Part shown: positions 228-18,713 of the stretch, piece by piece
Layout of the letters: each line of letters begins with the position of its first letter
How positions within the stretch are numbered: the stretch's first letter is position 1
NCBI RefSeq assembly: GCF_023277115.1
Contig: NZ_JALQCS010000001.1
Coordinates: 2,288,001-2,352,000 of the forward strand
Length of the DNA stretch: 64,000 nt
Reading direction: 5' to 3'
From: Acidithiobacillus acidisediminis
GTDB taxonomy: Bacteria; Pseudomonadota; Gammaproteobacteria; Acidithiobacillales; Acidithiobacillaceae
Translations under genes and position numbers: made by a program
Notes under the pieces: generated by a model
Databases searched by the model: none
What the model saw: the letters and a program-made list of their open reading frames with translations, nothing else
Told to the model about the DNA's origin: nothing

Positions 228-1001
228 TTAGAAGGTTTTGCCAGAAAAGCGATCCCGAGCAGAGTTCACCACTTTTTTGATCTGTTCGGCCTTTTTGCAT
301 AGGTACAGGTGTTCTGCCTTCCGCTGCTGAGCCTCAGTCAGCTGAAAGTAAATACCATACAAATACGGGTAGATCGGGTGGGTGATGCGCTCCCGGCGTG
401 CTATGGTAGCAACCGTTTCACAGATCCCACACTCCGGAATCTCGAACTCCACCAATACCATCTCTCCAGGCTCCAGGATGTCCTGATCCAGGAACATCGA
501 AGCCCCCCCAGGGCTGAAGTCGTGCAGCTTGCCATAGAGCGTCCTGCCATTCTTGGCTCGCATCAGGATGTTCCCTTCGATCGGCACCCGCCGCTGCTTA
601 CGAGCGTTTCTGGCAAGCACACGGGTGGGCAGTTCAAAATGGTGCAGACCTTCACCAGAATACTTCCAGTCTGCGAAGAACCCCAAAATCCGTGGCCGTG
701 CCAGCAGAAAGATGAGCGGCTTCCGTAGCTGCGTCTCTTCACCAAGGGAGGGACCCGCCGGTTCTAGTAGAAACTCGCGCCCTTCCCAGCGCAGAAAATG
801 ACATAGGGTACCATTGTCTCCCGAATCCGGGGTGTAAAAAATGGCACTTTGCCCTTCTGCTACCCCCAGGTCTTCCGGGTTCGGCAATAAGAACTCGTGG
901 GACCCTGATAAGAATGCGAGCGGCAGGAACTCGACCAAGGGTAAGTTTCCCCGGCTAGGAAGCAGTAAAGCCAACTCCGTATCGTCTTCACTGAGAGGCA
1001 A
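228..1001 (-). CDS. PilZ-domain protein (putative c-di-GMP receptor), transposon cargo
   Basis: 257 residues. The C-terminal half has the PilZ signature: an Arg-rich RKQRR near residue 136 followed about 30 residues later by DFSPGGA, the (D/N)xSxxG motif, then a beta-rich stretch ending in YGIYFQL and an Arg/Lys-rich helix. The N-terminal 100 residues resemble the YcgR-N-type beta domain of PilZ proteins only loosely. The start is TTG, chosen because AAGGGG lies six bases upstream and no ATG fits. It lies between tnsE and a second cargo gene, so it is transposon cargo. PilZ proteins bind cyclic di-GMP and control motility, exopolysaccharide or pili; the target here is unknown. Confidence 0.8.
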   Translation of the reverse strand: MPLSEDDTELALLLPSRGNLPLVEFLPLAFLSGSHEFLLPNPEDLGVAEGQSAIFYTPDSGDNGTLCHFLRWEGREFLLEPAGPSLGEETQLRKPLIFLLARPRILGFFADWKYSGEGLHHFELPTRVLARNARKQRRVPIEGNILMRAKNGRTLYGKLHDFSPGGASMFLDQDILEPGEMVLVEFEIPECGICETVATIARRERITHPIYPYLYGIYFQLTEAQQRKAEHLYLCKKAEQIKKVVNSARDRFSGKTF

Positions 1002-1244
1002 AGCAAACCCCTTCTGGTCTATTATAAATGTTACCGTGTAGCACTATTGGAACGAGCAAGCTACTCCGTCCTTCCTGAAGTTGCAACTACCCTGACCCGT
1101 CGCAGGAATTGGGGAACAGCTGTTCCTTGCGCTCAACGGCTCCGCCCAACGCAACAGCGCCTGCTGAGGCATCTTGCAAAACTGAGGGCGCTGATACATG
1201 GCGCCATATTGTGGGCCACTGACGGCAGTAAAGCCCGTTGTTTA

Positions 1245-4711: not shown

Positions 4712-4714
4712 AGA

Positions 4715-6337
4715 TCAGCATGGACCGAATTGTGGGCGGCGGATCAGCCCGGCAGCTATCAGCGATTCTTCGGCATTTCGCCCAACCTCCTGGCCCTTTC
4801 GCACCATGTCCGAGATCCTGGATACTGCTAAAGGTTTGCGTGGTACTTGCTTTCCTGATGGGCGTTTACCCTTCCTTGGCACCGCATTCCCCGGATCTTG
4901 TAACAAAACAGAGACGAAGCCGATAAGTTCCAGCATCGAAGCATCAGGGTGCAGGGCTCGAACCTTGGCGGCCATCGGTGTGGCAAGGTCTGTTGCCAAC
5001 CCGGCCTGCACCAAAACACCGATCAGCGGGTCGACATCGCCCGATTCCCCGCCCTTTCCAGAATCCAAGCCCGGCATGGATAGCGAAATGGTCTCCATTT
5101 GCGGCATAACATTCTGGAAAACCTGTGAAACGTGGCTATCCAAGGGTCGCAAATCGTCATACTTGCTAATCTCCCGCTGATTATTGGTCTTGAGCGCTCT
5201 CATCATTGGTTCGATGATCTTGAGGTGCCTCGCAGATGTCTCGCGGAACAGTCGCGCATCCATCACCTCGGGTGTGTTGCGGAAAGCGCTCTGCTCCATC
5301 ACCTGAAGTTGCGCCAACATAAACAGCTTGATCAGTACGTCAATGACCCCCTGACTTTCCTCGTATAAAACATAGCGGATCTCGTCTGTAAGCGGCGTTT
5401 CTTGCCGCGTCCATTGGTATTTCCACAAGACGTCGACGAAGTGGTCCCATGCTGACTCTGGCCGCAGGCGCTCCCAGACCGCGCACCCGAGGCCATTGGC
5501 GCGACGGGCTTGCCGAAAGTCATCCTGGAAGAGGGACAGGGCCCCCATCGTCCCAATCATAATTACCGGAATACCGATGGTATTGATGAGGGTCACCAAG
5601 AAGTTCAGTAAAGCATCCCGCCCCACTCCCTTGGCCAAGGTCAGATGTTGTATCTCGTCAATGATGAGCACGCCAAGTGCATGGCGATTTGCGAGTTGCG
5701 CCATCTGGGCCATCATCAAGTCCACTGGATTGCGCGTTTTGCCAAACTGGGCAAACGTTCGTGTGCCCAGGGCCAAATCAAGCTCCTGGAAAAAATGCAT
5801 GCAGAGCTGCTTCGGTGAGCCCTGGTGAGGACAGTCGAGCTTGAGCCAAACCACCTGCTGAAGGCTAAAGGGTTCGTCATGCGTAACAACCTGCGGGTAG
5901 TAGCTCAAAATCCGATTGATCGCAGTGCTTTTACCCGCCCCTGAGGCTCCAATGAGCGCAAACCCTTCCGCAGTTCCTCCAACATAATGACGTCCCGCAC
6001 TGAGATCGCGGGCGAGGATGCGCTCATGGCCATCTTGCAAGCGCCAGATGTAATCTGACTGCAAGGGATTGCGGCTGACATAACCTTGGCGCAACAGGGT
6101 GGAAAAAGCTGATTCCAGCCGCAGGTGGTGTTCCAGGGGCTCGAAGAAGCGGCGGAGCCGATACAGGCAATTCATTCGGAGTTGGATTGGGTAGGTCCGC
6201 TCCTCAAGGTTAAACTCCGGCGGGTCAGACAGAAACTGCCAAGCATTTCGCTGTGAGAGCTGCGGCGGTAAGCGATTGATGAAGGGGTTGTCCCGAAACT
6301 CCGGCAGAAGAGGGGGGGCGGTCGGGGATGAAGCCAT
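4715..6337 (-). CDS. tnsC: TnsC, AAA+ ATPase regulator of transposition
   Basis: 540 residues, close to the 555 of Tn7 TnsC. Walker A is GASGAGKST at residues 130-138 and Walker B is LIIDE at 224-228, followed by IQHL. TnsC forms ATP-dependent rings on DNA that connect the target selector (TnsD or TnsE) to the TnsAB transposase and mediate target immunity. The gene starts six bases after the tnsB stop and ends three bases before tnsD, within the single tns operon. The C-terminal 130 residues are less conserved, as expected for the region contacting TnsA and TnsB. Confidence 0.93.
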   Translation of the reverse strand: MASSPTAPPLLPEFRDNPFINRLPPQLSQRNAWQFLSDPPEFNLEERTYPIQLRMNCLYRLRRFFEPLEHHLRLESAFSTLLRQGYVSRNPLQSDYIWRLQDGHERILARDLSAGRHYVGGTAEGFALIGASGAGKSTAINRILSYYPQVVTHDEPFSLQQVVWLKLDCPHQGSPKQLCMHFFQELDLALGTRTFAQFGKTRNPVDLMMAQMAQLANRHALGVLIIDEIQHLTLAKGVGRDALLNFLVTLINTIGIPVIMIGTMGALSLFQDDFRQARRANGLGCAVWERLRPESAWDHFVDVLWKYQWTRQETPLTDEIRYVLYEESQGVIDVLIKLFMLAQLQVMEQSAFRNTPEVMDARLFRETSARHLKIIEPMMRALKTNNQREISKYDDLRPLDSHVSQVFQNVMPQMETISLSMPGLDSGKGGESGDVDPLIGVLVQAGLATDLATPMAAKVRALHPDASMLELIGFVSVLLQDPGNAVPRKGKRPSGKQVPRKPLAVSRISDMVRKGQEVGRNAEESLIAAGLIRRPQFGPC

Positions 6338-6343
6338 GATGAT

Positions 6344-8491
6344 TTACTCCTCTTCCTGCTCGGCTTCGCGAAATTTCTGCAGCATCTCCGTGATATCCGG
6401 CAGGCTGTAGTCCTTTGTGGGTGGAGCGCCAGGGAAAGAAACAACCTCGGCAGGGACGTCCGTCTTCATACTTGTCGTGCGCGTTGCGTCCTTATGACGT
6501 AAGGCAGCCAGTTCCGCGCGACGGTTACCACGGATGTCCTTGGTTCTTTGGCGATCAGACCGATCAGAAACCAGGGGAAGCCGTGCTTTGGCATCGGCAA
6601 CGACCCGTTGAATTTGATCGACCAGATTGATACGTCCAGTTGTTTCGCTACGCTGGTGGCTATGAGCAACCTCCTTCGATGCCTGCCGTAATTGGTCGAT
6701 CTCCCATAGAGTCTTGCATGCATGCTCGCGGCTTTGCTCCATAAGGGTACAAGCGATGAACTGCGGTTGCCCAGACTTCCCCTGCAACCATATAGCATCC
6801 ATACAACGCGGATCATAAGAAACACGGACCCGCCAATTTCGAATTTGGCGCGCACGTTCAAACCAATGCTCTTGCATGGCAAACGAACAGGAGTAATACA
6901 GCCCGAATAAACGGATACCTCTGGCGGTTACCATCGCGTCCGCATGTGGTAACAGGCTAAGGCGCACGATCTCATCCGGGTAGCGACGAAGCCGACCGCT
7001 ACGGTGCGAAATCCCCCAATTCCATAGCTCGATCGGAACAGCTGGAATTGCATCATGAATTATCTCTGGAGCAAGCGGGTACTCCTTGACCCGATGCTGG
7101 GTATTATAGTACTTTACACAATAAATCAGGATCTTGGTAAACTGATCAATATTTAGTTTCGCGTCCAAGCGGTAGTCGTTACCCCCACGCTCCCGATAGT
7201 CTGTCTGAATATACCCAGGCGTATAGGCCTTGAATCTCGCAGGCAGCAGGCGAAACTGTTGTTCTACAACCCCCTTCCAGTCGGCACGGTATGGAGCTGA
7301 ATTCTCTATTCGGACGGCGAAAGTCTGAATCAGCGTTTCGATCATCTCGCCAACCATTTCTCCGCGGTCGCCCAGAATTGCCTCCGGCATGCCTTGGCAC
7401 GGCCAGTCCGCAGTGTCGATAGCAACACCAAATTGGGCGCAGTAGTCCGTTTTATCGAGCACGGCGTTGCCTAACGCCTGCATGGCGCCGACCCAGCTCG
7501 GCCCCTCGAATCCCACGTGTAACCCGGCGATCATTCGACTGAATACGTCTATGACCACATACACCACGGGTCGACCGACGATTTTGTCGGGAAAATAGCG
7601 GGAGACGAGATAAATATCCGCAATCGTCGCGTCGATGAGGTAACGCGAGCCCGGGCCAACAGCCTCCCCCGTTGCCGTGCTGGTCAGAGCGCGCATGTCC
7701 TTGTCATAGACGCGTGAAGATGCCCGACGACGTTTGAGCGCAAAAATGTCGTTATCTTTCTGATACCAGTAACGAAACTGCCACCAGCTTGGCGCGCCCG
7801 AGCGCAAAACCCATTCCTGCTGGCCGGTGCCGGGGTCTACCACCGAATCCGAAAAAGAGGCACGCAGCATCGCGTGGTAACACTCCGTAAGCTCAAAAAC
7901 CGGATGCATGGCATAAAATCGGATGACGGCCGCCTTGAAAATCGCGCGCGTTTCCGGCGTGACATTGACGGAGTTCCCGTCGTTCTTCGGTGGTCGTCCA
8001 CGACGCTTGCCAGTGGCAGCGCGTTCCCGGCCACGTGCGCCGGAATTGGCGTAATCGGGCAGCAGAGCGTTCGGTGTCATGCCGCGCTGCCAGTAACGAC
8101 GCAACAACCGCAACAGGCTGTGATGACTTTCCCCATGAGTGGAAGAAAATTCAGCAAGGATTTTGCCGCGCTTGCGGAGATCAAAGATCTCCGGCTGTCG
8201 CTGCAGAACCGGAGCGATCCGAGCAAAGTTTTGGTCGCGCTTAGCCCGTTGTGCAGCAGAGAGCCGGCCTTCATTCTTGTTGATGAGCAAGGGATCTTCT
8301 TTGCCTAGTTGGACAGCACCCTCATCCAGCAGGCGAATCACATCGGCGTGACGTCGGTACAGCGGGTTGGAGTGCTCAGCATGAATGTCTATGCAAACAT
8401 AGCCCGGGTCGCCCGCGTCGATCCACAATACCCGCTCGGTGTGCCCGTCCTCGGAGAATTCCAACAGTTGGTTGAGGGCAAGAAAGCTCAT
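6344..8491 (-). CDS. tnsB: TnsB, DDE transposase subunit
   Basis: 715 residues (Tn7 TnsB has 702). The start is the ATG overlapping the tnsA stop (ATGA), giving MSFLALNQLLEF; longer readings run into tnsA. The retroviral-integrase-type catalytic triad is visible as D287 (LIDATIAD), D375 (ILGDRGE) and E410 (GVVEQQ), with the D-to-E spacing of 35 that also holds between D361 and E396 of Tn7 TnsB. TnsB binds the end repeats and performs 3' strand cleavage and joining. An Arg/Lys-rich linker (GKRRGRPPKN, 161-170) lies between the N-terminal DNA-binding region and the catalytic core. Confidence 0.95.
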   Translation of the reverse strand: MSFLALNQLLEFSEDGHTERVLWIDAGDPGYVCIDIHAEHSNPLYRRHADVIRLLDEGAVQLGKEDPLLINKNEGRLSAAQRAKRDQNFARIAPVLQRQPEIFDLRKRGKILAEFSSTHGESHHSLLRLLRRYWQRGMTPNALLPDYANSGARGRERAATGKRRGRPPKNDGNSVNVTPETRAIFKAAVIRFYAMHPVFELTECYHAMLRASFSDSVVDPGTGQQEWVLRSGAPSWWQFRYWYQKDNDIFALKRRRASSRVYDKDMRALTSTATGEAVGPGSRYLIDATIADIYLVSRYFPDKIVGRPVVYVVIDVFSRMIAGLHVGFEGPSWVGAMQALGNAVLDKTDYCAQFGVAIDTADWPCQGMPEAILGDRGEMVGEMIETLIQTFAVRIENSAPYRADWKGVVEQQFRLLPARFKAYTPGYIQTDYRERGGNDYRLDAKLNIDQFTKILIYCVKYYNTQHRVKEYPLAPEIIHDAIPAVPIELWNWGISHRSGRLRRYPDEIVRLSLLPHADAMVTARGIRLFGLYYSCSFAMQEHWFERARQIRNWRVRVSYDPRCMDAIWLQGKSGQPQFIACTLMEQSREHACKTLWEIDQLRQASKEVAHSHQRSETTGRINLVDQIQRVVADAKARLPLVSDRSDRQRTKDIRGNRRAELAALRHKDATRTTSMKTDVPAEVVSFPGAPPTKDYSLPDITEMLQKFREAEQEEE

Positions 8492-9330
8492 GCCCGGTTC
8501 TCCTGGCGTCCGCCAGGCAGCGTGCGGAAGGACGCCATGGTGATCAGCGGGTCGCTCAGCACCACTGACTCCATATCGCAAAGAACCGACTTGGTCGCCA
8601 GAAGGTGTCGGAACAGCATCAAACCCTCTTCGCTGCCCAGACCCAAGCGGACTTCCATGTCCCCACAAAATTGTCGCAGCGACAACCAGGGGGAGGCGCT
8701 GACTTGTGCCCGCATTCGGCGTCCAGCGTCTTGGTAGAAGCCCGGGTGCGGTTCGACAAGGCCCTCCAGGCGGTAGAAATTGTGAACCCACTCAATATTA
8801 CGGATCAGTTGGGTCGGAAGAACGGCCGGGGTGACGATGCTCCACTCAATTTCCTTTCTTTCCCAGTAGTGCCTTTCTATTTCCAACTTTTCCAGTGTTC
8901 TGGGCTGGTCGAGATCCTTGGCGGATTTTACGGCATAGGCCGTTTGCACCAATTTGCCGCCGGCGCAGGCATCGACCACAAAGTCCGTGGTCATAACCAT
9001 CGGTGTCACCATACCCGGGAAGCGGGGGTGCGGAATATTGCAGGCTTCGGCAATCTGGGAGGTCGCGGATCGGTCCAAGGGGAACTGTTCCCGAATATCA
9101 GCGACCGAATCTTCCCAATCCAAGCAGTAGAAGAGGCTTCGTTCAATGTCAGAGAGCAAATGGTGTATGCGCCCGGTATGAATCCCTCGGAGGCGGGTAC
9201 TCCGCCCCGTTGACGGCACGTCCTGAATCGCCAACCAGGGTTTGTAGTCCGCGCCGACACCTCTGCCCCGTCCCTCTTGCTCAAACAGGGCAATCCGCTG
9301 TTCGTCGATAGTGTAACGGCGTCGGGCCAC
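8488..9330 (-). CDS. tnsA: TnsA, restriction-like endonuclease subunit of the transposase
   Basis: 280 residues (Tn7 TnsA 273). TnsA cuts the 5' ends so that Tn7 moves by cut-and-paste. Visible active-site candidates are E63 (DIERS, same number as E63 of Tn7), D116 in TTDFVVD, and K135 in AVKSA. In Tn7 TnsA the catalytic Gln lies two residues before the Lys; here that position is Ala133. First gene of the operon; the leader up to 9403 must hold its promoter, with TnsB-type repeats directly upstream, which implies autoregulation by transposase binding, as proposed for Tn7. Confidence 0.92.
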   Translation of the reverse strand: MARRRYTIDEQRIALFEQEGRGRGVGADYKPWLAIQDVPSTGRSTRLRGIHTGRIHHLLSDIERSLFYCLDWEDSVADIREQFPLDRSATSQIAEACNIPHPRFPGMVTPMVMTTDFVVDACAGGKLVQTAYAVKSAKDLDQPRTLEKLEIERHYWERKEIEWSIVTPAVLPTQLIRNIEWVHNFYRLEGLVEPHPGFYQDAGRRMRAQVSASPWLSLRQFCGDMEVRLGLGSEEGLMLFRHLLATKSVLCDMESVVLSDPLITMASFRTLPGGRQENRA

Positions 9331-9403
9331 AGTGCCCTCCCCGGATCGAGACTACCGAAAGTTCACGCTACTCCTCACCATCGGAAATGGCAACAGCTGT
9401 GAG

Positions 9404-9463
9404 CAAACTTTATTGCCCATGTCCAAACTTTATTACCCATGATCAAACTTTATTGCCTGCGAA
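9404..9463. repeat. Three 20-bp direct repeats, putative TnsB-binding sites at the transposon end
   Basis: Copies start at 9404, 9424 and 9444 with exact 20-bp periodicity. The shared core on the plus strand is CAAACTTTATTGCCCATG (second copy A for G at one position, third copy diverging after TTGCC). The array lies between tnsA and the inferred transposon terminus, as do the 22-bp TnsB sites of Tn7, four of which are packed at its right end. The match to TnsB-site function is by position and arrangement. Confidence 0.8.
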
Positions 9464-9642: not shown

Positions 9643-9739
9643 TGTTCACCTCCGTAACCAATTGTCTCAGCCGTTCCATGGCGGATTTGCTATAGGCCAA
9701 GTTTACCACAGGCATACCCCACAGATCCTCCTCACCCAC
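9554..9739 (-). CDS. Hypothetical small island protein
   Basis: 61 residues from a GTG start, beginning MGEEDLWGMPVVNLAYSKS. The N-terminal 35 residues read as plausible coding sequence (SAMERLRQLVTEV helix), while the Gly/Ala-rich tail overlaps the next gene's start out of frame, so the true end could differ. Box A lies directly at its 5' end (9741-9758). No family is recognised; overlap with a better-supported gene makes this weak. Confidence 0.35.
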   Translation of the reverse strand: MGEEDLWGMPVVNLAYSKSAMERLRQLVTEVNNGKAARKTPAPQGADGGSADQGGAGPKGV

Positions 9740-9740
9740 A

Positions 9741-9758
9741 GCACGGATTTTCTCGTCA
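9741..9758 (-). promoter_or_regulatory. Box A island motif, copy 1 (two mismatches)
   Basis: Minus-strand TGACGAGAAAATCCGTGC, two differences from the 18-bp consensus TGACGAGACAATCCGCGC. It abuts the start of the 61-residue ORF. See the other four copies at 10877, 12642, 15814 and 18296. Confidence 0.5.
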
Positions 9759-9816
9759 ACCAGAAAAAAGCCACCACATCAAAAAGATATGGTGGCGCGT
9801 GCTTGGTGGTGGTGGA

Positions 9817-10323
9817 CTAGAACTTCACGCGAGGGCGAGATGGTACATCAAAAGGCACCACGAACGGGATCTCGTCGTCGAAATCCATGGGAGCGGCATG
9901 ACCACCACCGCCACCGGAACGGGCAGGCGCGGCAGATGGAGCAGAACCAGCCGATGCGCCCGCACCATCATGCTCACCGCCAGTTCCACCACTGCGTCCG
10001 CCAACCAGCTGCAAACGATCGCCGATGATCTCGGTCGTGTAGCGATCCTGGCCTTCCTTATCGGTCCACTTGCGCGTCTGCAGCTTCCCTTCGATGTAGG
10101 CCATACTTCCCTTTTTCAGGTACTCGCCAGCAACCTCGGCGATGCGCCCGAAGAGCGCGACTCGATGCCACTCGGTATTTTCTACCTTGTTTCCATCTTT
10201 ATCCTTGTAGGTTTCCGACGTTGCAATTGCCAGATTGGCAACTGCCTTACCGTCGGGCATATACCGCATCTCGGGGTCCCGCCCCAAGTGGCCCAAAATG
10301 ATTACACGATTTACACCTGCCAT
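9817..10323 (-). CDS. ssb: Single-stranded DNA-binding protein (mobile-element copy)
   Basis: 168 residues. The OB fold is evident in the first 110 residues ([64 protein letters not shown]), followed by a Gly/Ala/Ser-rich linker. SSB normally ends in an acidic tip DDDIPF that recruits other replication proteins; here DFDDEIPF is followed by 14 more residues ([14 protein letters not shown]). The start ATG has AGGAG ten bases upstream. Island and plasmid SSBs protect transferred single strands; neighbours are DNA-processing genes. Confidence 0.95.
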
Positions 10324-10356
10324 GACTGCATTCTCCTAAAAATGAAACACCAAGAC

Positions 10357-10380
10357 GGTATAGCGCCGACCCATGGCGAC
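10357..10380 (-). promoter_or_regulatory. Box B promoter element upstream of ssb
   Basis: Minus-strand CGCCATG-N7-GCTATACC, about 35 bases before the ssb start. The terminal GCTATACC resembles a -10 hexamer (TATACC). The same arrangement occurs at 15777-15800 and 18254-18277. Confidence 0.55.
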
Positions 10381-10391
10381 AAGAAAAAAGG

Positions 10392-10658
10392 CTATTCCGT
10401 CAGGTATCGGCGGATATCCGAGCCAGGAACATTGCGCCCTGCCTTTTCCCGACGCCCAGCGCACTCCACACAACGAACCGCATGGACAGCTTCTACGCGC
10501 GCGGGAGGGATCGTGTCTCCACAATCCAGGCAGTACCGGCCATGCTCATCTTCATCTGGTTCTTCCACATCCACAGCAATACGCAACCGTGCGATTGCCG
10601 CTTCCCGTTCCGCTTCCTCAAAATGGGAAGCGATGTCTCCCTCATCCCCCTGTAACAA
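10392..10658 (-). CDS. TraR/DksA-type C4 zinc-finger protein
   Basis: 88 residues. The C-terminal half has the four-Cys finger of the family (CLDCG near residue 43 and CVEC near 63) after an acidic helical N terminus (EEAEREAAIARLRIAVDVEEPDEDE in two parts). TraR proteins of conjugative elements and phages bind RNA polymerase through the secondary channel and imitate DksA with ppGpp. The start is TTG, with AGGAGG six bases upstream, placed just behind the stop of the 55-residue ORF, so both are co-transcribed. Function is by family only. Confidence 0.85.
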   Translation of the reverse strand: MLQGDEGDIASHFEEAEREAAIARLRIAVDVEEPDEDEHGRYCLDCGDTIPPARVEAVHAVRCVECAGRREKAGRNVPGSDIRRYLTE

Positions 10659-10667
10659 AGGTGCCTC

Positions 10668-10835
10668 CTAGTATCGAATGACAAACTTCACCAAAAACAA
10701 ATCACGCCCTTGCTGCGCCAGGCGCTTGCAGATTTTTGCTGCACGGGTCTTCGGGCGAAGTTTCATCCCCAAAGACTTTGAATACAGACTACCACCAGCA
10801 AACTCCCGAATCTCGTATAGCGTCTTGCTTTTCAT
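10668..10835 (-). CDS. Hypothetical 55-residue island protein
   Basis: Starts MKSKTLYEIREFAGG at an ATG with GGAGG five to eight bases upstream; a longer in-frame reading to 10910 lacks such a site and crosses box A. The protein is basic, with an Arg/Lys-rich middle (RPKTRAAKICKRLAQQGRD). No family is recognised. Its stop is followed at once by the ribosome-binding site of the TraR/DksA gene. Confidence 0.6.
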   Translation of the reverse strand: MKSKTLYEIREFAGGSLYSKSLGMKLRPKTRAAKICKRLAQQGRDLFLVKFVIRY

Positions 10836-10876
10836 CAGCGTTCCTCCAAACAATCGTGATGCTTCGCCTATCCTAA

Positions 10877-10894
10877 GCGCAGATTGTCTCGTCA
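10877..10894 (-). promoter_or_regulatory. Box A island motif, copy 2
   Basis: Minus-strand TGACGAGACAATCTGCGC, one difference from consensus, 41 bases upstream of the 55-residue gene. Preceded by T, which makes TTGACG, a good -35 hexamer, but no convincing -10 follows at 17 bases (GATAGG). Confidence 0.65.
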
Positions 10895-10913
10895 AGACGG
10901 AATATTCCACCAG

Positions 10914-12602
10914 CTACGCAACATGCTCCAATAAAAGACTGGATTGCGCACCTTCAGCATGATCAATAGAGGCATTCCAATCCATGTGGTAGCCAAGCTC
11001 TTTTTGCGTGCTTTCCAGTGCTTCGGAAATTTTTTCTTCTTTGCTTTCCTTGCCCTCCCATCGAGCAAGAGATACCCGCTTCATGGCCTTGTCGGAGATC
11101 TTCTCCGCATCCGCATACTGTGCCCAGAAGCCTTCGTTCTCGCCCCCCGGAATCCAGGACCGGGCACGGCCAACCAACAGATTCAGCCGGTCAATGAGGT
11201 CAGGGCGCGTTGGGAAGAAATGGATCGTACCGATTCCTGGGTAAAACCGTACATCCATGTACGAACAGGAAACTCTCTCTCCGTCGCGCAGGTTTTGAAA
11301 GCTGCTCGTCCCCTCTTCGAATACCGATTCCAGAGAAATTTCCGGTTCCGTTTTTCCGTCGAGAATAGCAAAGGCACGATCCAGATCTTTCAGACTCTGC
11401 ATTTCGCTCCAACCAAGGCCACGCCTCCACCCCTCCAGAGAGAATCCACCAAGGATGAAACGCTTGTTGCGAATCCGCATGCCTACCCGGTGCTTGGCGT
11501 TGGACTTCCAGGGGCGATAAAAGGCGACGTTCTCCGTTCCCTGTCGCGTGATCCGGTCGAACAGGTCCAGGCAGATGTCCAGGTGGATATCGCCTTGCGA
11601 CTCGGCCAATCCCTGCAGGAATCCATAGATGTTAGGCAAACTGAACTCCAGCTTCGAGATATGGGAAAACTCCGCACGGATTCGATCGACCGCCTTGCGC
11701 GTCAGATACTTCTCTGTCTCTGTTGCCATAAGAACCGCCGTCCAAGCCCGCTCTTTCAGGCCTTCGTACGTTTCTGCAAGGTGCTTCTGCATTGATGTCT
11801 TGCCAGAAAATCCAGTCTGCACGCGAATATTGGGGCTTTCCTTTTTCTCCGCGTTGCTCACCAGATCGGCAAGCTTGAGTCCCAGCATCCCGCGGAAGTA
11901 ATCCGCCCGCATCCGTGGGCCCACTGTAGCCAATTCAGCCTGCCAAGCCTCCTGGAAGGCGATCACCAGGTTTTTGATAGTTTCTCCGCGCAGGGCGATT
12001 TTCCCGCCAATCTCAAAGTCCACGGCCTCCGGCCCCGCATCTTTTTTGAGTCCATCCAGAAAATCGGTGCTGAAGCAGCCAGCCTCTGGCGTTTTCTTGA
12101 GCCAAACAAGGGCCACTTCCACATCGGTTTTGCGCTGTGTATCTGGGTCCAGAAAGGCCGATTTCTCGTATCGCACAGACCCGTTCTTCTCGACCAGCTT
12201 CACCAGCCGTTCGCGTTTCTCGCTGAACGGGTTGCGGATCGTCTCAGCATTGAGAATGGCGACGATCTCGCCAGACAGCAGCCCGTCCCATGCATACAGA
12301 ACGTGCTCCGCTCCATTCCGGAATGGGGGATTCATAATAATGTGCGAATACATACTGAGCCCGCCCATTTCCAGAAAATCCACACCAACCACGGTCCCCT
12401 TCTCTCGCAAAGCGGCATGTCGTCTCAAATCGATTTCTGCAGCATGGATACGATCATTCCGCAAGTCGTAGGGCTTCGCATCCAGCAGGTCGCCGTTGCC
12501 CGCCGACGGCTCAAGAACCAGAAGGAAATCCCGGTCTTGGAACAAGGACCATGCAGTACGGGCAAGATTTTCTGGTGTTGGGTAAAATTGCAGATTTTCC
12601 AT
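10914..12602 (-). CDS. N6-type DNA methyltransferase with DUF4942 domain
   Basis: 562 residues. The N-terminal 170 residues form a class I SAM methyltransferase: motif I EPSAGNGDLL at 31-40 and catalytic NPPF at 91-94, typical of N6-adenine or N4-cytosine methylases. The C-terminal half matches the DUF4942 pattern common in mobile-element methylases (VAFYRPWKSN, RNKRFILGGF, DLDRAFAILDGK, MDVRFYPGIGTIHFF). No restriction endonuclease gene is adjacent, so an orphan methylase that protects the island from host restriction is the likely role. A box A copy lies 40 bases upstream of the ATG. Confidence 0.85.
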   Translation of the reverse strand: MENLQFYPTPENLARTAWSLFQDRDFLLVLEPSAGNGDLLDAKPYDLRNDRIHAAEIDLRRHAALREKGTVVGVDFLEMGGLSMYSHIIMNPPFRNGAEHVLYAWDGLLSGEIVAILNAETIRNPFSEKRERLVKLVEKNGSVRYEKSAFLDPDTQRKTDVEVALVWLKKTPEAGCFSTDFLDGLKKDAGPEAVDFEIGGKIALRGETIKNLVIAFQEAWQAELATVGPRMRADYFRGMLGLKLADLVSNAEKKESPNIRVQTGFSGKTSMQKHLAETYEGLKERAWTAVLMATETEKYLTRKAVDRIRAEFSHISKLEFSLPNIYGFLQGLAESQGDIHLDICLDLFDRITRQGTENVAFYRPWKSNAKHRVGMRIRNKRFILGGFSLEGWRRGLGWSEMQSLKDLDRAFAILDGKTEPEISLESVFEEGTSSFQNLRDGERVSCSYMDVRFYPGIGTIHFFPTRPDLIDRLNLLVGRARSWIPGGENEGFWAQYADAEKISDKAMKRVSLARWEGKESKEEKISEALESTQKELGYHMDWNASIDHAEGAQSSLLLEHVA

Positions 12603-12641
12603 CGTTTCCCCGCCATCAATTCTGAGTCAGATTCACCCTTG

Positions 12642-12659
12642 GCGCGGATTGTCTCGTCA
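12642..12659 (-). promoter_or_regulatory. Box A island motif, copy 3 (exact)
   Basis: Exact TGACGAGACAATCCGCGC on the minus strand. Its first three bases are the stop codon of the upstream uracil-DNA glycosylase gene, and its end is 40 bases before the methyltransferase start. Confidence 0.7.
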
Positions 12660-13286
12660 GCCGGGGATCGTTGGTTTTGCCCGCAGGAAACTCGCGGCTT
12701 TCCGTACCACTTCCTCTCCGATTGCGCTCCATTTGCGGCCATCTGGAGCATTGCGGTTCCACGCCAGTGGGCTTGTGTGGGGCATGGCGTAGAGCCGTGC
12801 CCCACGAGGCCAAGCCGCCCGCAAATCTTCCCGGTACAGGCATGCGGCTTTTTGGGGGTCGTGGCCATTGGCATCCAGTGTCCCAATGTTGCTCTCCAGT
12901 TTCGCAATTCCCGTCAGGGCAGCAATGGCTGTAGCCCCGACGGTCAGCACCACTTCTGGCCTTGCATTGGCAATCGTCCCTGCCAGATAGGGCAGGCAAT
13001 TCGCGATTTCCTGATTCGTCGGCTTCCGATTCCCCTCTGGCCGACAGCGCACGATATTGGCGCACCCATAGTCATAGCCGCGTCGCAAGCCGTATTCTTC
13101 CAGCAGGCGATGTAGGGTCCGCCCTGCCCTGCCTACAAAGCCCTTGCCCTGAGCGTCCTCATCGGCCCCTGGCGCCTCGCCAATGACCAGCAGGCGACAG
13201 GAACGACCAAAATCTGGCAGGTCCGGCATGACCACTTGGGTGCGAGAAGCACAAAGGGACGGGCAACGAGTGCAGTCGCTAATCAT
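12657..13286 (-). CDS. Uracil-DNA glycosylase, family 4/5-like iron-sulfur type
   Basis: 209 residues from MISDCTRCPSLCASRTQ. The N-terminal Cys pair (CTRCPSLC) and later cysteines (NIVRC, NCLPYL region) fit the 4Fe-4S ligands of family 4 enzymes. Catalytic motif A is IGEAPGADEDAQGKGFVGRAG (split: IGEAPGADED, GKGFVGRAG) and the C-terminal motif is HTSPLAWN. The enzyme removes uracil arising from cytosine deamination, or dUTP misincorporation. The ATG overlaps the end of the upstream membrane-protein gene, so it belongs to the operon starting at the helicase. Confidence 0.88.
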   Translation of the reverse strand: MISDCTRCPSLCASRTQVVMPDLPDFGRSCRLLVIGEAPGADEDAQGKGFVGRAGRTLHRLLEEYGLRRGYDYGCANIVRCRPEGNRKPTNQEIANCLPYLAGTIANARPEVVLTVGATAIAALTGIAKLESNIGTLDANGHDPQKAACLYREDLRAAWPRGARLYAMPHTSPLAWNRNAPDGRKWSAIGEEVVRKAASFLRAKPTIPG

Positions 13287-13650
13287 GATGATCTTCCCGC
13301 AATGGATGATCGATAAAAAATATGATCCGGTCCAATTCACCCCAGGTTGGGTGCCGCTCCTGGCCGCAGATTGCAACCCAAGAGCACCGTACCGCATCGA
13401 ACCTGGATGCTTCACTGCGCAAGATGTGCATGGCCGCATCGCTTACCGGCTGATCGCTCCAAACCACCCGCACCAACCAAAGGATTGCGGTAATGCAGAG
13501 CAGGGCAACACCAAGGCCCAAAATGACCGCGCTCCAAGGATGCAGAAAATCTCTCTGGTACCCGGTAATGACACCCATACATCCAAGGGTAAAGGTGTAA
13601 ATCTCAATCCACGGGAACGGCGCGTGTGGGCCGGGAAAGGTGTATCTCAT
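13279..13650 (-). CDS. Small integral membrane protein, unknown function
   Basis: 123 residues from MRYTFPGPHAPFPW. Two hydrophobic segments are clear, about residues 15-35 (IEIYTFTLGCMGVITGY) and 42-65 (AVILGLGVALLCITAILWLV), followed by a soluble C-terminal tail of about 55 residues. The ATG overlaps the previous gene's stop (ATGA), with GGAGC upstream. No family is recognised. Confidence 0.65.
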   Translation of the reverse strand: MRYTFPGPHAPFPWIEIYTFTLGCMGVITGYQRDFLHPWSAVILGLGVALLCITAILWLVRVVWSDQPVSDAAMHILRSEASRFDAVRCSWVAICGQERHPTWGELDRIIFFIDHPLREDHHD

Positions 13651-13832
13651 GAAAGAAGCTCCAACAGAGTGCGATGATCCTCTACCGCAATCCACAGCGC
13701 GGCTATAGTGAGCCAAAAGCTCTCGGCAAACATGGCAGCATCATTATCCATAAGGCCCTGCATACCTTCGCCCAAGGCCAGAGAAAGGCCAGTCATGGTG
13801 CAGAGCAGGCGGAGCAGGACCATCGTAGCCAT
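13647..13832 (-). CDS. Small membrane protein, 61 residues
   Basis: One or two hydrophobic segments (MVLLRLLCTMTGLSLALG and ESFWLTIAALWIAV). It starts one base after the stop of the zinc-ribbon gene and overlaps the next gene by four bases, so translation is coupled. Unknown function; conserved packing with neighbours is the main evidence that it is real. Confidence 0.55.
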   Translation of the reverse strand: MATMVLLRLLCTMTGLSLALGEGMQGLMDNDAAMFAESFWLTIAALWIAVEDHRTLLELLS

Positions 13833-13833
13833 C

Positions 13834-14187
13834 TCACAAATCTTTCACAGATGGCCACTTCCGCCGTATTTTCCCTTCTCGGTCACCACCGCACCGCTTG
13901 CAGAGGCCTGTTTCCTTGGCGCAGTCTCGGCACAAGATATCAGTGGCCGTGCTGCTGTAGACCTGCTCCTTTCCACAGCACATGCACGGCTCTGTGGTGA
14001 TAGCTTGCCCACCAATGCAACTGCCGTAGTAGCAGATTTGGCATAGGCCAGACTGTACCCGATTCTGATGCTCTGGGTCCGTGCGCAGCTTGTCGGCAAA
14101 GTCGATAGCCCGCTGCATACGGTCTTTCGATGCGCGGGTCCAGGATTCCATATTGGCTGCGCTCATGATCCTGCGTTTACGCTCCAT
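13834..14187 (-). CDS. Cys-rich zinc-ribbon protein, unknown function
   Basis: 117 residues from MERKRRIMSAANMES, chosen because GGAG lies seven bases before this ATG. The C-terminal half has four CxxC-like pairs (CQICYYGSC, CMCCG, CRDC, CKRCG), suggesting two zinc ribbons. It follows the helicase gene by 18 bases in the same operon. No family could be named. Confidence 0.65.
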   Translation of the reverse strand: MERKRRIMSAANMESWTRASKDRMQRAIDFADKLRTDPEHQNRVQSGLCQICYYGSCIGGQAITTEPCMCCGKEQVYSSTATDILCRDCAKETGLCKRCGGDREGKIRRKWPSVKDL

Positions 14188-14205
14188 CACAATTCTCCAC
14201 AGCAT

Positions 14206-15723
14206 TCAAACCCTCAACCCTGCATAATCCGTCGGCTGCCTAAGCGTATGGATTGCACGAGTCTTGGCGACATATAGCAATCGCTTTTCCTCATCACTCT
14301 CAAGCCTTTTCTTGTTGAAAAGGCCATCAGAAAGACAGACGGAATCGAACTCCATCCCCTTGCTTTTGTGAGCCGTAATGACAATACGATCACAGGACTT
14401 CCATGCATCCTTGTCGCCATCCAGATCCACAGAGGAATCCATGACGGACTGCAGCCCGTCAACGCCATAGTCGTCGACCAGCTTCAACAACATCTTGATA
14501 TCGTTTCCTTCACTTGACCCCGCGTGTTCTCGTAACTCATCCTCTGACTTGAAAAGCGCGAATTGCCCTGATGGCTCACCATCCACCAGTTTCTGATAAT
14601 CTCGGAGGAAAGCGCGGATTCCGGCTTTCCCACTAACACCAACCCGCTGCTTGTCAGACAATCCACTCATGGCTCGGTCGATGGCCTCGGCATTGGTGCG
14701 CACAATGGTGGCACGCGAAGCCTCAGTAGATTTGCCAGTGAACACTTTTGATGTTCTGTCCGGGCGTCCCTCCAGAAAGTATTTTGCCCCCAAGCTCTGC
14801 AACACCTGGTTTGCGTCGTCGGCCACCGCCTGCCCAAAGCGGAAGCTCATGGTCAAAGGCGTCTCCGGTAGATCGAGAGACTGCATGGCGTTCTTCGCCC
14901 CGCGCCACTCGTAGATCTGCTGGAATGCATCACCCACATAAAAAACCGGGATCTTCTGTGCCGTCGTCAATAGCAACATCAGTCCGTCAGCATCTTGCGC
15001 CTCATCAAACAGGATGTAGTCGTAGCGAAAGCCAGCAGCGTTAAGTTTTGGGGACGAAAGCACGAATTCCCGAAGATAGAGGTCATGCGTCACGGGGAAA
15101 TCACTTTTAGGATTGAGCATTTCCCCCAATGCCCGCTTGGCAAGTTCTATAGCCTGATCGCGAATCTTGTAGCAGGTTTTGCAGTTTTGCTCGTTCTCTG
15201 CCAGCTTCTGGTTGATCTCGGTTTTGAGGCTCTGGTTCTCACCACAAGAGGCAAAGATTGCCTCCAATTCCCGACGCTCAGCGAAAATGGCCTTGCAGGC
15301 ATCATTCCATGCCACGTGTTCCTTCGTAATCTGTGCATCCGAGGTGCGCAGAAACCTGGAGAGAGTGCCTAATGCCACTTCCCCTATGGCGTAGCTGTAA
15401 TCTCCGGTGACCCCGAATCTGGAGCGAAGGTAGGAAGCATTCAGGCGCTTGTTCAGTCGGGCGCCGTATTTGCGTCCAAACCCCGCAAAAGCCAGCGAGT
15501 GAAACGTCCGTGCCTGGCATGCAGAACCCTCGAACTTCCTTTGTGCCTCTGTGGCGATTGCCTTGTTGAAAGACAGGTAAAGCCCCCGCTTTTGCCCGAG
15601 TTCCTGCGCAATCGCGGCGAGAGTGGTGGTTTTGCCGGTCCCGGCCAGGGCAGAGACCTTGAAGCTCTGCATTTTCTTGGCCATGGCAACCGCCTTGCGC
15701 TGTTCTTGAGTAAGGGCAAACAT
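14206..15723 (-). CDS. UvrD/Rep-type superfamily 1 helicase
   Basis: 505 residues. Q-motif-like N terminus (LTQEQRKAVA), Walker A ALAGTGKTTT at about residues 29-38, motif Ia FNKAIATEAQRKF, motif II DEAQDADGLML near 265, motif III GDAFQQIYEWRGA, and a C-terminal motif V/VI region (VITAHKSKGMEFDSV, KRLLYVAKTRA). Shorter than UvrD (about 720), with reduced 2A/2B domains, as in FBH1-like and mobile-element helicases. It is the first gene of the operon; box A and box B lie 90 and 55 bases upstream. Role in island replication or repair is inferred. Confidence 0.88.
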   Translation of the reverse strand: MFALTQEQRKAVAMAKKMQSFKVSALAGTGKTTTLAAIAQELGQKRGLYLSFNKAIATEAQRKFEGSACQARTFHSLAFAGFGRKYGARLNKRLNASYLRSRFGVTGDYSYAIGEVALGTLSRFLRTSDAQITKEHVAWNDACKAIFAERRELEAIFASCGENQSLKTEINQKLAENEQNCKTCYKIRDQAIELAKRALGEMLNPKSDFPVTHDLYLREFVLSSPKLNAAGFRYDYILFDEAQDADGLMLLLTTAQKIPVFYVGDAFQQIYEWRGAKNAMQSLDLPETPLTMSFRFGQAVADDANQVLQSLGAKYFLEGRPDRTSKVFTGKSTEASRATIVRTNAEAIDRAMSGLSDKQRVGVSGKAGIRAFLRDYQKLVDGEPSGQFALFKSEDELREHAGSSEGNDIKMLLKLVDDYGVDGLQSVMDSSVDLDGDKDAWKSCDRIVITAHKSKGMEFDSVCLSDGLFNKKRLESDEEKRLLYVAKTRAIHTLRQPTDYAGLRV

Positions 15724-15776
15724 TTCATCTCCGCTTCGTTGTCCTGCAGACGTAGTGCAGGCTGCCTACCAGTTAC

Positions 15777-15800
15777 GGTATAGCAACTAGCCATGGCGGC
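15777..15800 (-). promoter_or_regulatory. Box B promoter element upstream of the helicase
   Basis: Minus-strand CGCCATG-N7-GCTATACC with an extended -10 (TTGCTATACC) located 55 bases before the helicase ATG; box A lies a further 14 bases upstream. Confidence 0.6.
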
Positions 15801-15813
15801 CCGCTCAACTACT

Positions 15814-15831
15814 GCGCGGATTGTCTCGTCA
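15814..15831 (-). promoter_or_regulatory. Box A island motif, copy 4 (exact)
   Basis: Exact TGACGAGACAATCCGCGC. Start-to-start distance to the TATACC hexamer of box B is 49 bases, a position suited to an activator site upstream of the -35 region. Confidence 0.7.
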
Positions 15832-15869
15832 GAGATGAGGTGGAGACCCCTTGTGATACTAGACGATCA

Positions 15870-16271
15870 TCATTCAATTTCAATATTTTTGATGATCTTC
15901 CTCTTGATCTCAGAGATAAACCGGCCTGCACTTGCAATGTGCTCATGCGCGCCTACTTTGTCCAAAGAGTCATAGCTGTAGTCGGCAACCAATCTTGCAC
16001 TTTCAGCCCTGGTCAGGATTTTACTCATTTCAACGCCAACTTTCCCAGTCTTTACAAAGTGCCTGGAAAACTCAGAGATCAAACCACTATGAGACCTAAT
16101 ATTTTCCGCTCCCTGCACTCTCTGATGAATCAAAGCAGCTTTTGCAGCGTCTAGCATTGCATAGTACGCACGATTTACCGAACCATTATAGTCTTCGGCA
16201 TTATACAGAGTTATAGCAGACTTGAATGCTACATCAGCTTTGGACATAAGCTCATTAGATAAACTTTTCAT
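15870..16271 (-). CDS. HEPN-domain protein of an MNT/HEPN toxin-antitoxin pair
   Basis: 133 residues, helical, with the family's NRAYYAMLDAAKAAL stretch near residue 33 and HSGLISEFSRHFVKTG near 62, then a second helix pair (LTRAESARLVADYSYDS). HEPN proteins are usually ribonuclease toxins or their relatives. The start overlaps the nucleotidyltransferase stop by four bases, the standard layout. Its coding sequence is clearly richer in A/T than its neighbours, which suggests separate acquisition. Whether the RNase motif is intact cannot be judged safely from the sequence alone. Confidence 0.85.
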   Translation of the reverse strand: MKSLSNELMSKADVAFKSAITLYNAEDYNGSVNRAYYAMLDAAKAALIHQRVQGAENIRSHSGLISEFSRHFVKTGKVGVEMSKILTRAESARLVADYSYDSLDKVGAHEHIASAGRFISEIKRKIIKNIEIE

Positions 16272-16624
16272 AATTGGATACCCTCTCTTTTAATGTTATC
16301 CAAAAGTTCTTGATTTGTATATTTGTCTGGATGATCCCAATACTCTACTGGAACCAAAACCGTTGTAATTACGTAACCAGTTTCTAACAAGACTTCTGCA
16401 GAAAGATCTGCGAGACGCATACTCAACGCATACACTTGGCTCTGCGGAATGTTGGAAACCAAAGCAACATCAACGTCGCTATCGCTCCGTGCGTCACCAC
16501 GAGCACGACTGCCAAAAAGAATGGCCTTTTCAAAAGATACCACACCCATCGCTCCATCGATAAATCTTTGGAGCGATTGCAAAAGATCCGGTGGAATATC
16601 CTGCCTTGATTTTTTCAGTTCCAT
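16268..16624 (-). CDS. MNT-type minimal nucleotidyltransferase (antitoxin)
   Basis: 118 residues from MELKKSRQDIPP; a TTG six bases upstream is the alternative start. The nucleotidyltransferase signature GSRARGDARSDSDVDVAL is complete (GSxARG and DxD). MNT antitoxins adenylylate their HEPN partner on a conserved Tyr and so block it. Gene order antitoxin then toxin, with overlap, fits. AT-rich like its partner. Confidence 0.87.
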   Translation of the reverse strand: MELKKSRQDIPPDLLQSLQRFIDGAMGVVSFEKAILFGSRARGDARSDSDVDVALVSNIPQSQVYALSMRLADLSAEVLLETGYVITTVLVPVEYWDHPDKYTNQELLDNIKREGIQL

Positions 16625-16697
16625 AACCAAGCCTGTGACACCAGTAGCCGTCTCTCATTGTACCGCGAAATCAATATTCTCCCTACAAACGAAGTCT

Positions 16698-17636
16698 TTA
16701 GAACCGCGAAAACCAGCCCTTGGCCTTGGCTACCAAGCCACCAACGCCACCACCAGCCATCTTCCAGTCCTGATTGAACTGCGCTTGCAGATTCCCGATG
16801 TCGCTCCCGTTCAGCAGCAGGCCCATCTCCCGGTTCTGCTCCAGACTGGTCTGGGTGAAGTTCTCGGAACCAATGAAAGCCAAGGAACGTCCCACGATCA
16901 TCTTGGCGTGCATGTAGATGGGGCTCTTGGGCAGCAGGCGAACCTGACACCCATGCGCCTTGAGAAAGTCCACATCGCGTTGATCCGCGCTATTGATGCT
17001 GGCCGGCAGTATCAGCCGAAGATCCTTGCCCTTCGCCGCCAGGGCATCAAGGATCGGGCGGTAGGGGCCAAGCTCTTCCGACTCAACACTGATCGGTCCT
17101 GGCTGATTGATGACCTGCAATAACTGTCCGGCTGAACTCCCGGGAGAAACGACGAGAACTCGATGCGCATAGGCTGGCGCCCTGCGGTTGTTCCAGTCGG
17201 CATTGAAAACAGCGTTCGCCGCCTGCACCACGGCGCGGTTGCTCGTGACATAGAGATACTCCCGGTTCTTGTGGAATGCGGACCAATCGAAGTTGGCGGT
17301 GCCAACCTCGCATTCATGCCCGTTGCAGACGTACTTTGCGTGCATGAAGGCGTAATGGTCACCATGGCTGGTGAAACGGTACGGGGCCAATTTGAGAGTG
17401 GCTCCCGTGGCCTGGATGGCCCGCTCCTCGCGCCGTACCTGCCAGGGTTTCATGCCATAAGGTTTACCCTCTATGATGACGCGCACGTCCACGCCCCGCG
17501 CGTGAGCAGACTGCAAGGCCCGAAGGATCGGTTTGTCGGACAGGTAGTAGACTTCCAGACTCACTTCCCGCCGCGCCTGCTGGATCACCTGGATGATCGG
17601 CGCAGGACCGGCTTGTGGTTCAATGTACATTGGCAT
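16698..17636 (-). CDS. Phospholipase D-family protein with two HKD motifs
   Basis: 312 residues. Two HxK motifs are visible: HAKYVCNGHECEVGTANFD near residue 120 and HAKMIVGRSLAFIGSENFT near 245, each followed by the expected Gly/Ser-Asn. The tandem arrangement forms one active site, as in cardiolipin synthase and in PLD-type nucleases. There is no signal peptide or membrane segment, so a cytoplasmic phosphodiesterase or nuclease role is more likely than lipid synthesis. The ATG at 17636 has AGAGAGG upstream. Confidence 0.85.
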   Translation of the reverse strand: MPMYIEPQAGPAPIIQVIQQARREVSLEVYYLSDKPILRALQSAHARGVDVRVIIEGKPYGMKPWQVRREERAIQATGATLKLAPYRFTSHGDHYAFMHAKYVCNGHECEVGTANFDWSAFHKNREYLYVTSNRAVVQAANAVFNADWNNRRAPAYAHRVLVVSPGSSAGQLLQVINQPGPISVESEELGPYRPILDALAAKGKDLRLILPASINSADQRDVDFLKAHGCQVRLLPKSPIYMHAKMIVGRSLAFIGSENFTQTSLEQNREMGLLLNGSDIGNLQAQFNQDWKMAGGGVGGLVAKAKGWFSRF

Positions 17637-17648
17637 CAAAAACCTCTC

Positions 17649-17740
17649 TTAATCATGGCAATCCCCAGTATCATCAATCAGATCAAAAGGAATGCTCAAG
17701 AACATAAACATCCCACAGAGAAAAACGGCAGCCCCTAACA
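17649..17740 (-). pseudogene. 3' remnant of a membrane-protein gene cut by the IS fragment
   Basis: Only the last 29 codons survive (LGAAVFLCGMFMFLSIPFDL, then IDDTGDCHD and a stop). They form one hydrophobic helix and end 12 bases before the PLD gene, so an intact operon gene once stood here. The reading frame continues into the IS remnant to 17969 only by chance. Confidence 0.45.
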
Positions 17741-18087
17741 GACTGCTGAAAAACCGAGCGATAAAATCCACTTGGCGTCTATTGTTCTCGAAAAACGCAT
17801 CTTGAGGACAGTTCTGGACGGCTTTTGTGCGGTTTTTCTGGTCAATCTGCCCGGTTTCCCGAACTCTGGACGCAGCACCCCCATCACGCCACCCCCAGTC
17901 GTGCCATACGCACCAGATTGTAGGCGGTGGACACCAGGGTGAAGTGCAGCCCCACCCGTTCCAATCCACGAAATCGCGTTTTGCGCATCCCGCCCACGGT
18001 CTTCATCCACCCAAAGATCGACTCGATCCGCTTGCGTACACGAATGCTGATGCTGTACCCGACATGACGGGTAGTGCGGCCATCTAC
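17741..18087 (-). mobile_element. IS5-family insertion sequence remnant (3' part)
   Basis: Codes for the last 67 residues of an IS5-type transposase (TTRHVGYSISIRVRKRIE, FGWMKTVGGMRKTR, FTLVSTAYNLVRMARL) at 17884-18087. The Glu in RKRIESIFGW is the third DDE residue; the first two are lost. The presumed outer inverted repeat is GACTGCTGAAAAACCG at 17741-17756. The 5' part is missing, so it cannot move by itself. Confidence 0.75.
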
Positions 18088-18210
18088 CGCGGATCCCTTG
18101 CAAGGCCCGCGGCAATACCGTGGAACGGCATAGGGAACGCAGAGGCGTTGGCAACGGCGGAAATGGCAAGGGCAAACATGCCCGCGGTGATGGCAGTAGT
18201 CTTGGTCATA
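18085..18210 (-). pseudogene. Truncated exported protein, N-terminal fragment with signal peptide
   Basis: 41 codons from MTKTTAITAGMFALAISAVA, a typical Sec signal peptide with an ANASA cleavage site, then 15 residues and a stop at the junction with the IS remnant. It has a full upstream region with box A and box B, so it was an expressed island gene before truncation. It may still be transcribed. Confidence 0.5.
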
Positions 18211-18253
18211 AAAACTCCATGTTGTCGATGAAAGGTGCTTCTCTACCAAAGCT

Positions 18254-18277
18254 GGTATAGCAACCGGTCATGGCGCG
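18254..18277 (-). promoter_or_regulatory. Box B promoter element upstream of the truncated exported protein
   Basis: Minus-strand CGCCATG-N7-GCTATACC, with the extended TTGCTATACC, 44 bases upstream of the ATG at 18210. Confidence 0.6.
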
Positions 18278-18295
18278 AAACCCGCTTCACCGATA

Positions 18296-18313
18296 GCGCG
18301 GATTGTCTCGTCA
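18296..18313 (-). promoter_or_regulatory. Box A island motif, copy 5 (exact)
   Basis: Exact TGACGAGACAATCCGCGC, preceded by TT. Paired with box B at 18254-18277, five bases further from it than in the helicase promoter. Confidence 0.7.
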
Positions 18314-18480: not shown

Positions 18481-18530
18481 ACCGATTTGTAATCAGAAGG
18501 TCACGAGTTCGATTCTTGTTGCCGGCACCA
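18481..18530 (+). repeat. 3' fragment of tRNA-Thr(TGT): island attachment site
   Basis: Contains the 3' side of the anticodon arm around TTTGTAA (anticodon TGT), the variable loop, a T arm with the GTTCGATT loop and stem pairs ACGAG/CTTGT, the 3' acceptor strand TGCCGGC and ACCA. No matching 5' acceptor strand or D arm lies upstream, so it is not a complete tRNA. A 3' fragment of this size is the usual product of integration into a tRNA gene. Confidence 0.8.
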
Positions 18531-18713
18531 ATAATAACAAATAACTACTCCAATCTCTTTTAAATCATTTCCCTGCCCGTAGACACCTCGTAGACGCTTG
18601 GAGCCCAATTCGTTCTGTCAGCGTGCAAGGCAAGATACGGCAGCGACAGTGAGGATCTCTCCCCCTATCGAACTTATCGTTATCCACACTCCACGGCAGA
18701 TTGAGGCAGCAGC

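Follow-up and report, generated by a model that had tools for sequence, protein, structure and literature searches.

Box A, a candidate promoter motif private to a group of Trb-type ICEs in Acidithiobacillia

Introduction

Near one end of a mobile element of Acidithiobacillus acidisediminis, an 18-bp sequence (box A) recurs ahead of several genes, always in the same orientation. Is it a protein-binding site accompanying ordinary promoters, a signal read in RNA, or part of a promoter? Throughout, the window is the whole 64-kb stretch of DNA that was analysed, and coordinates are those of the window unless a genome is given. G000 is the source genome, G000a is its second Trb-type element and the other G-numbers are the other genomes compared.

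Results

Copies of box A and the elements that carry them

A motif scan of the 64-kb window at ≤3 mismatches returned five matches, all on the minus strand (two mismatches at 9741, one at 10877, none at 12642, 15814 and 18296); shuffled versions of the window gave 0.06 on average and never more than 2. The first-pass annotation had given the same five copies, three of them exact, with the same positions, mismatches and strand. Its spacing of 40 to 90 bases before a gene start was nearly right: the next plausible start codon lies 41 nt (10877), 39 nt (12642), 90 nt (15814) or 86 nt (18296) past the end of the box. The copy at 9741 has an ambiguous target ORF (25 nt to a 53-aa ORF or approximately 98 nt to a 69-aa ORF). 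The copy at 12642 overlaps the end of the upstream UDG ORF, and its TGA is the UDG stop codon.

Within the window, box A was confined to the island, as had been claimed; the island edge is a 49-bp direct repeat (Table 1). The repeat matches an intact tRNA-Thr(TGT) at G000 2064659-2064734 and is its 3' part, so that the window shows the far end of an ICE of approximately 242 kb (2064659-2306532). The intact tRNA gene is adjoined by a tyrosine integrase, an HTH_17 excisionase-like gene, RecT and an S24 (CI-type) repressor. This ICE carries ten copies of box A: the five of the window and those at G000 positions 2066269 (preceding an ORF of 83-88 aa and then xis-like and int genes), 2164727, 2222571, 2225500 and 2225914. 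The second Trb-type element, near 526-541 kb, carries three copies (at 526-535 kb). One of these, at 526666, has three changes and stands in the same orientation ahead of parA; with the 12 copies at ≤2 changes it makes 13 in G000. The genome-wide scan found no copy at ≤2 mismatches in G000 outside the two elements; equal density in the host chromosome, named by the first-pass annotation as an argument against an island signal, was therefore not observed. The proposal of a cis-acting, orientation-fixed control element common to the genes of one mobile element is thus supported.

Table 1. Box A, box B and neighbouring features in the window
Feature	Position	Strand	Remarks
Box A copy 5 + 3' extension (TGACGAGAAAATCCGTGC TGTGGGTG)	9733..9758	-	2 mismatches; starts 11 bp past terminator-like stem
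Intrinsic-terminator-like hairpin after ssb	9770..9796	-	11-pair stem + T6; stem ends 11 bp upstream of box A copy 5
ssb	9817..10323	-	PF00436, 7e-37
Box B (GCTATACC) before ssb	10357..10364	-	
TraR/DksA-type C4 zinc-finger protein	10392..10658	-	PF01258, 1e-9; also in the G018 ICE
p55, conserved 55-aa protein	10668..10835	-	55% identical to G018 copy; no Pfam match
Box A copy 4 + 3' extension (TGACGAGACAATCTGCGC TTAGGATA), ahead of p55-traR operon	10869..10894	-	1 mismatch
DUF4942 protein with NPPF methylase-type motif	10914..12602	-	PF13708, 5e-45; motif read from sequence
Box A copy 3 (TGACGAGACAATCCGCGC CAAGGGTG), ahead of DUF4942/NPPF methyltransferase-like gene	12634..12659	-	Exact
Uracil-DNA glycosylase (UDG) superfamily gene	12657..13439	-	PF03167
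UvrD-like helicase	14206..15723	-	PF00580
Box B (GCTATACC) between box A copy 2 and helicase	15777..15784	-	
Box A copy 2 (TGACGAGACAATCCGCGC AGTAGTTG), ahead of UvrD-like helicase	15806..15831	-	Exact
PLD-family nuclease-like protein	16698..17639	-	PF13091; 70% identity to G018 ortholog
Box B (GCTATACC) downstream of box A copy 1	18254..18261	-	
Box A copy 1 (TGACGAGACAATCCGCGC TATCGGTG), first element inside ICE end, ahead of short secreted-protein-like ORF	18288..18313	-	Exact
ICE end: 49-bp direct repeat of 3' part of tRNA-Thr(TGT)	18484..18532	+	Identical 49 bp at G000:2064688

Sequence and placement of box A

Alignment of 34 copies extended box A to 26 bp, YGACGAGACNATCYGYGC-TATRGGTG, with the sequence blocks GACGAGAC, ATCYGYGC and TATRGG. 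Positions 3-8, 11-13, 15, 17 and 18 were invariant in the 34 copies and position 10 was free; positions 14 and 16 held C or T only (31 non-redundant copies). The aligned copies were picked at ≤3 changes in the 18-mer, so conservation of the 18-mer is partly a matter of selection; that of the extension is not, since TATRGGTG was conserved although it lay outside the search pattern. Copies of G000a and G022 are not independent of each other, nor are the tandem copies in G000b and G025. Information was near zero upstream of position -1, conservation being confined to the 26 bp, and no dyad symmetry of a palindromic operator was found in box A, as read from its sequence and per-position base counts.

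The start codon usually lies 29-41 nt past the 18-mer, and 53-90 nt past it in several copies. A Shine-Dalgarno sequence (SD) and an ORF followed on the same strand within 18-95 nt for 26 of 29 distinct copies, compared with 22% at random positions; of the other three, one lies at the end of a fragment, one has an interrupted ORF and one has lost its ATG. Box A often stands directly behind an upstream stop codon.

Terminator-like hairpins were found upstream of 5 of 26 copies, versus 28 of 411 control windows (7%), a modest excess. Besides the stem next to copy 5, three other copies in G000 and G018 have GC-rich hairpins approximately 50 bp upstream. Barring readthrough, transcripts of the genes behind such hairpins cannot begin upstream of the box. 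Sigma-70 promoters showed no excess upstream of the box A copies.

Box B

A second motif, box B (GCTATACC or GATCTATACC), lies approximately 27-36 nt before many Trb-type ICE genes in G000, G018, G022, G017, G007 and G003, often with ATC-C approximately 16 bp upstream of it. It dominates the related Trb elements without box A (G017, G007 and G003), partly as GATCTATACC. Its distances to the ATG resemble those of box A, and the two boxes were found in both orders (A-B and B-A) and singly. They share GCTAT, possibly a common -10-like part, and box B is itself promoter-like. The earlier statement that box A acts on the whole gene set went too far, since box B takes its place before many ICE genes, among them ssb and many trb genes.

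Genes behind box A

The box-A genes of the window are the secreted-protein-like ORF, the UvrD-like helicase, the DUF4942/NPPF gene, p55-TraR and a gene cut by a Tn7-like element. IS5 similarity was found at approximately 17735-18101; this remnant cuts short the secreted-protein-like ORF behind copy 1 and intervenes before the PLD gene, whose G018 ortholog has box A directly upstream. The other box-A genes of G018, which belongs to a second genus, encode p55-TraR, a DinG-like helicase (assigned by eye), a UvrD-like helicase fragment, a beta-clamp-like protein, AntA, RecT and small membrane proteins; those of G000a encode ParA, a lipoprotein-like ORF and a small membrane protein. What these sets have in common is DNA processing, partition, excision and small envelope proteins. 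Box A was retained before the G018 ortholog of p55-traR although most of the flank differs, and before that of the UvrD-like helicase, where the flanks are largely unrelated between the two genera.

Other features of these loci were recorded as follows. p55 and the TraR/DksA-type zinc finger (10392-10835, minus strand) make up an operon that is conserved ahead of ssb in two genera. Tn7-like transposition genes (TnsA, TnsB-like, TniB/TnsC, TnsD/TniQ and, weakly, TnsE) occupy 228-9460 on the minus strand; AATAAAGTTTG-type repeats near 9390-9455 apparently mark the end of this Tn7-like element, which is inserted in an ICE ORF. A HEPN and nucleotidyltransferase pair (toxin-antitoxin-like; 15870-16630, minus strand) is flanked by the PLD gene and box A copy 2. 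Tandem small membrane or signal-peptide ORFs, each with its own box A, were seen at L012 (G000:2222262-2225914) and at L060 and L061 (G025), some copies with identical terminator-like hairpins; these ORFs look like members of one family, duplicated locally and broken up by other insertions.

Distribution of box A

All 12 exact matches of GACGAGACNATCYGYGC in G018 fell within 1801282-1979375, with no exact match elsewhere in its 3.0 Mb; this element is most likely ICEAcaTY.2 of A. caldus ATCC 51756 (PMC3826726). When 29 genomes of the family were scanned, exact copies were found in G000, G018, G022, G025, G027 and G012 (one of the last four belongs to a third genus), and the reversed-pattern control gave near zero. 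In G000 and G018 the same motif thus stands ahead of several operons of the ICE and is absent from the rest of the chromosome. This confinement, together with the occurrence in further genomes, shows box A to be specific to the elements and present in three genera of the family; conservation in related ICEs, asked for by the first-pass annotation, was therefore found in other Acidithiobacillia genomes.

Wider searches returned little. Outside G000, 369 sampled gammaproteobacterial genomes held four single matches. The exact 18-mer occurred in 12 stretches of 85,000 species genomes, ten of them outside Acidithiobacillia, which is about chance level for 257 Gb (expectation approximately 7 by our arithmetic). 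Viral contigs gave three single matches, all without the conserved extension, and matches in plasmid records were only IS5-type and other short ones. Rfam gave no match to box A beyond a sub-threshold snoRNA.

Search for a factor that reads box A

Single-subunit RNA polymerase (PF00940) was absent from G000, G018 and G022 even at E ≤10; the positive control, phage T7, was recovered at 1e-109. FlhC (PF05280), the family to which BisC of ICEclc belongs, was absent from four genomes at E ≤10. Among element-carried sigma factors (a flagellar-type sigma at G018:1934768 and one sigma at G000:557713), none was common to the box-A elements; a sigma encoded by the host may still read box A. The island regulator predicted by the first-pass annotation was sought by a three-way comparison for proteins confined to box-A elements, which gave no clear candidate among the matches listed. 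A 155-aa protein without a Pfam match, placed by eye in the RHH class, was considered and rejected: it was present in 13 of 29 genomes, mostly those without box A, and is therefore not specific.

Discussion

Box A as part of a promoter

On the combined sequence evidence, box A is probably the upstream recognition part of a 26-bp promoter that is confined to one group of large Trb-type ICEs among Acidithiobacillia, would need a dedicated factor and would define a box-A regulon. The conserved 3' half, the short spacing, the terminator upstream of 9741 and the lack of sigma-70 enrichment make it most likely that the element contains a promoter; TATRGG is a poor sigma-70 -10, which counts against this. 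The earlier view that box A does not by itself make a full promoter is probably mistaken, as it misses the conserved TATRGGTG and the short distance to the start codon. Transcription would start within or just after TATRGGTG, giving a leader of approximately 20-35 nt.

Box A is contiguously conserved, and not palindromic, where sigma-70 promoters have a free spacer; this implies a dedicated factor (an activator or an unusual specificity factor), which would guide RNA polymerase to box A. Given such a factor, the genes behind box A would be one regulon separate from the box-B genes. Its predicted members are the nuclease, helicase, recombinase and clamp genes, the TraR/DksA-like protein, ParA, the excision module and the small envelope proteins, probably expressed in the excised or newly transferred state. 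The narrower proposal that an ICE-encoded specificity factor, neither sigma-70-like nor T7-like, reads box A as a complete promoter is distinctly unlikely; if true, that factor would give the element its own transcription programme, working after transfer into different genera.

From sequence alone, box A marks out a candidate regulon in the conjugative elements of biomining bacteria and sets DNA processing, excision, partition and TraR genes apart from the box-B genes (ssb and many trb). Box A may also serve as a marker for genes of these ICEs in other genomes and as a route toward the factor and the timing of ICE switch-on.

Other readings

Box A could be an operator only, bound by a repressor or activator with the actual sigma-70 promoter at another place in the short gap, as the first-pass annotation supposed. 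Element-wide, orientation-fixed copies would suit an operator, as would those copies that box B separates from a start codon 53-90 nt away. We nevertheless consider it rather unlikely: the box lacks a dyad, the usual 29-41 nt to the ATG are too few for a -35/-10 downstream, sigma-70 promoters are not enriched upstream, and boxes A and B occur in both orders and alone. It is quite improbable that box A acts instead as an RNA element of the 5'-UTR, the site of a regulatory protein or small RNA. The terminator stem 11 bp ahead of box 9741 leaves no room for a separate upstream promoter, the genome-wide matches included no recognisable antisense-oriented copy that might be the small RNA gene, Rfam gave no match and 18 near-invariant positions would make an unusually long small-RNA site. 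The pyrimidine-only variation at positions 14 and 16 in the 31 non-redundant copies, as G-U pairing would allow, and the closeness to the SD, often right behind an upstream stop codon, do favour an RNA role.

Two further readings invoke special promoters. With its contiguous stretch of approximately 22 bp ending in CTATAGG and no gap in conservation, box A could be a promoter for a single-subunit (T7-type) RNA polymerase; GCTATRGG resembles T7 promoter positions -5 to +3. The absence of PF00940 from the three genomes searched, despite a working T7 control, makes this very unlikely. Hardly more credible is a single-stranded leading-region promoter (Frpo/ssi type), suggested by a gene set (ssb, methyltransferase-like, nuclease-like) and a common strand that resemble plasmid leading regions (PMC11541004): the complement of box A did not occur in the flanks much beyond chance, which argues against a hairpin promoter, and box A also precedes ParA, trb-cluster and integrase-module genes that lie far apart.

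Comparison with known systems

No earlier report of the motif was found in the open-access literature, where the search returned only an unrelated mouse paper. ICEAcaTY.2, probably the G018 element with 12 copies of box A, is alike in having a Trb system, a tRNA target and a CI-type repressor; a text search of its paper did not return the word 'promoter' (PMC3826726). T7-family phage promoters, like box A, are contiguous asymmetric elements ending in CTATAGG near the putative start, but no single-subunit polymerase was found in G000, G018 or G022. Functional parallels are offered by Frpo/ssi, repeated promoters on a common strand before ssb and anti-defence-like genes (PMC11541004), although no hairpin containing box A was predicted, and by EGeRS1 and EGeRS2 of the pLS20 family, regulatory sequences repeated before several conjugative-element operons with accessory DNA-protecting genes (PMC8708921). 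EGeRS1, however, spans 400-600 bp with inverted repeats, whereas box A has 18-26 bp and no dyad, and EGeRS2 works via an RHH repressor (PMC8708921).

The nearest known kind is found in ICEclc, where one 27-bp motif lies upstream of eight of nine co-regulated transfer-competence promoters and nowhere else on the ICE (the BisDC regulon; PMC9286271). Host and ICE family differ, and FlhC was not found in the four genomes searched. Box A lies close to the start codon; the ICEclc motif, by contrast, was reported 152 bp from a mapped start site (PMC9286271). By description, the two are alike: each is an element-wide motif, in ICEclc before co-regulated promoters (PMC9286271).
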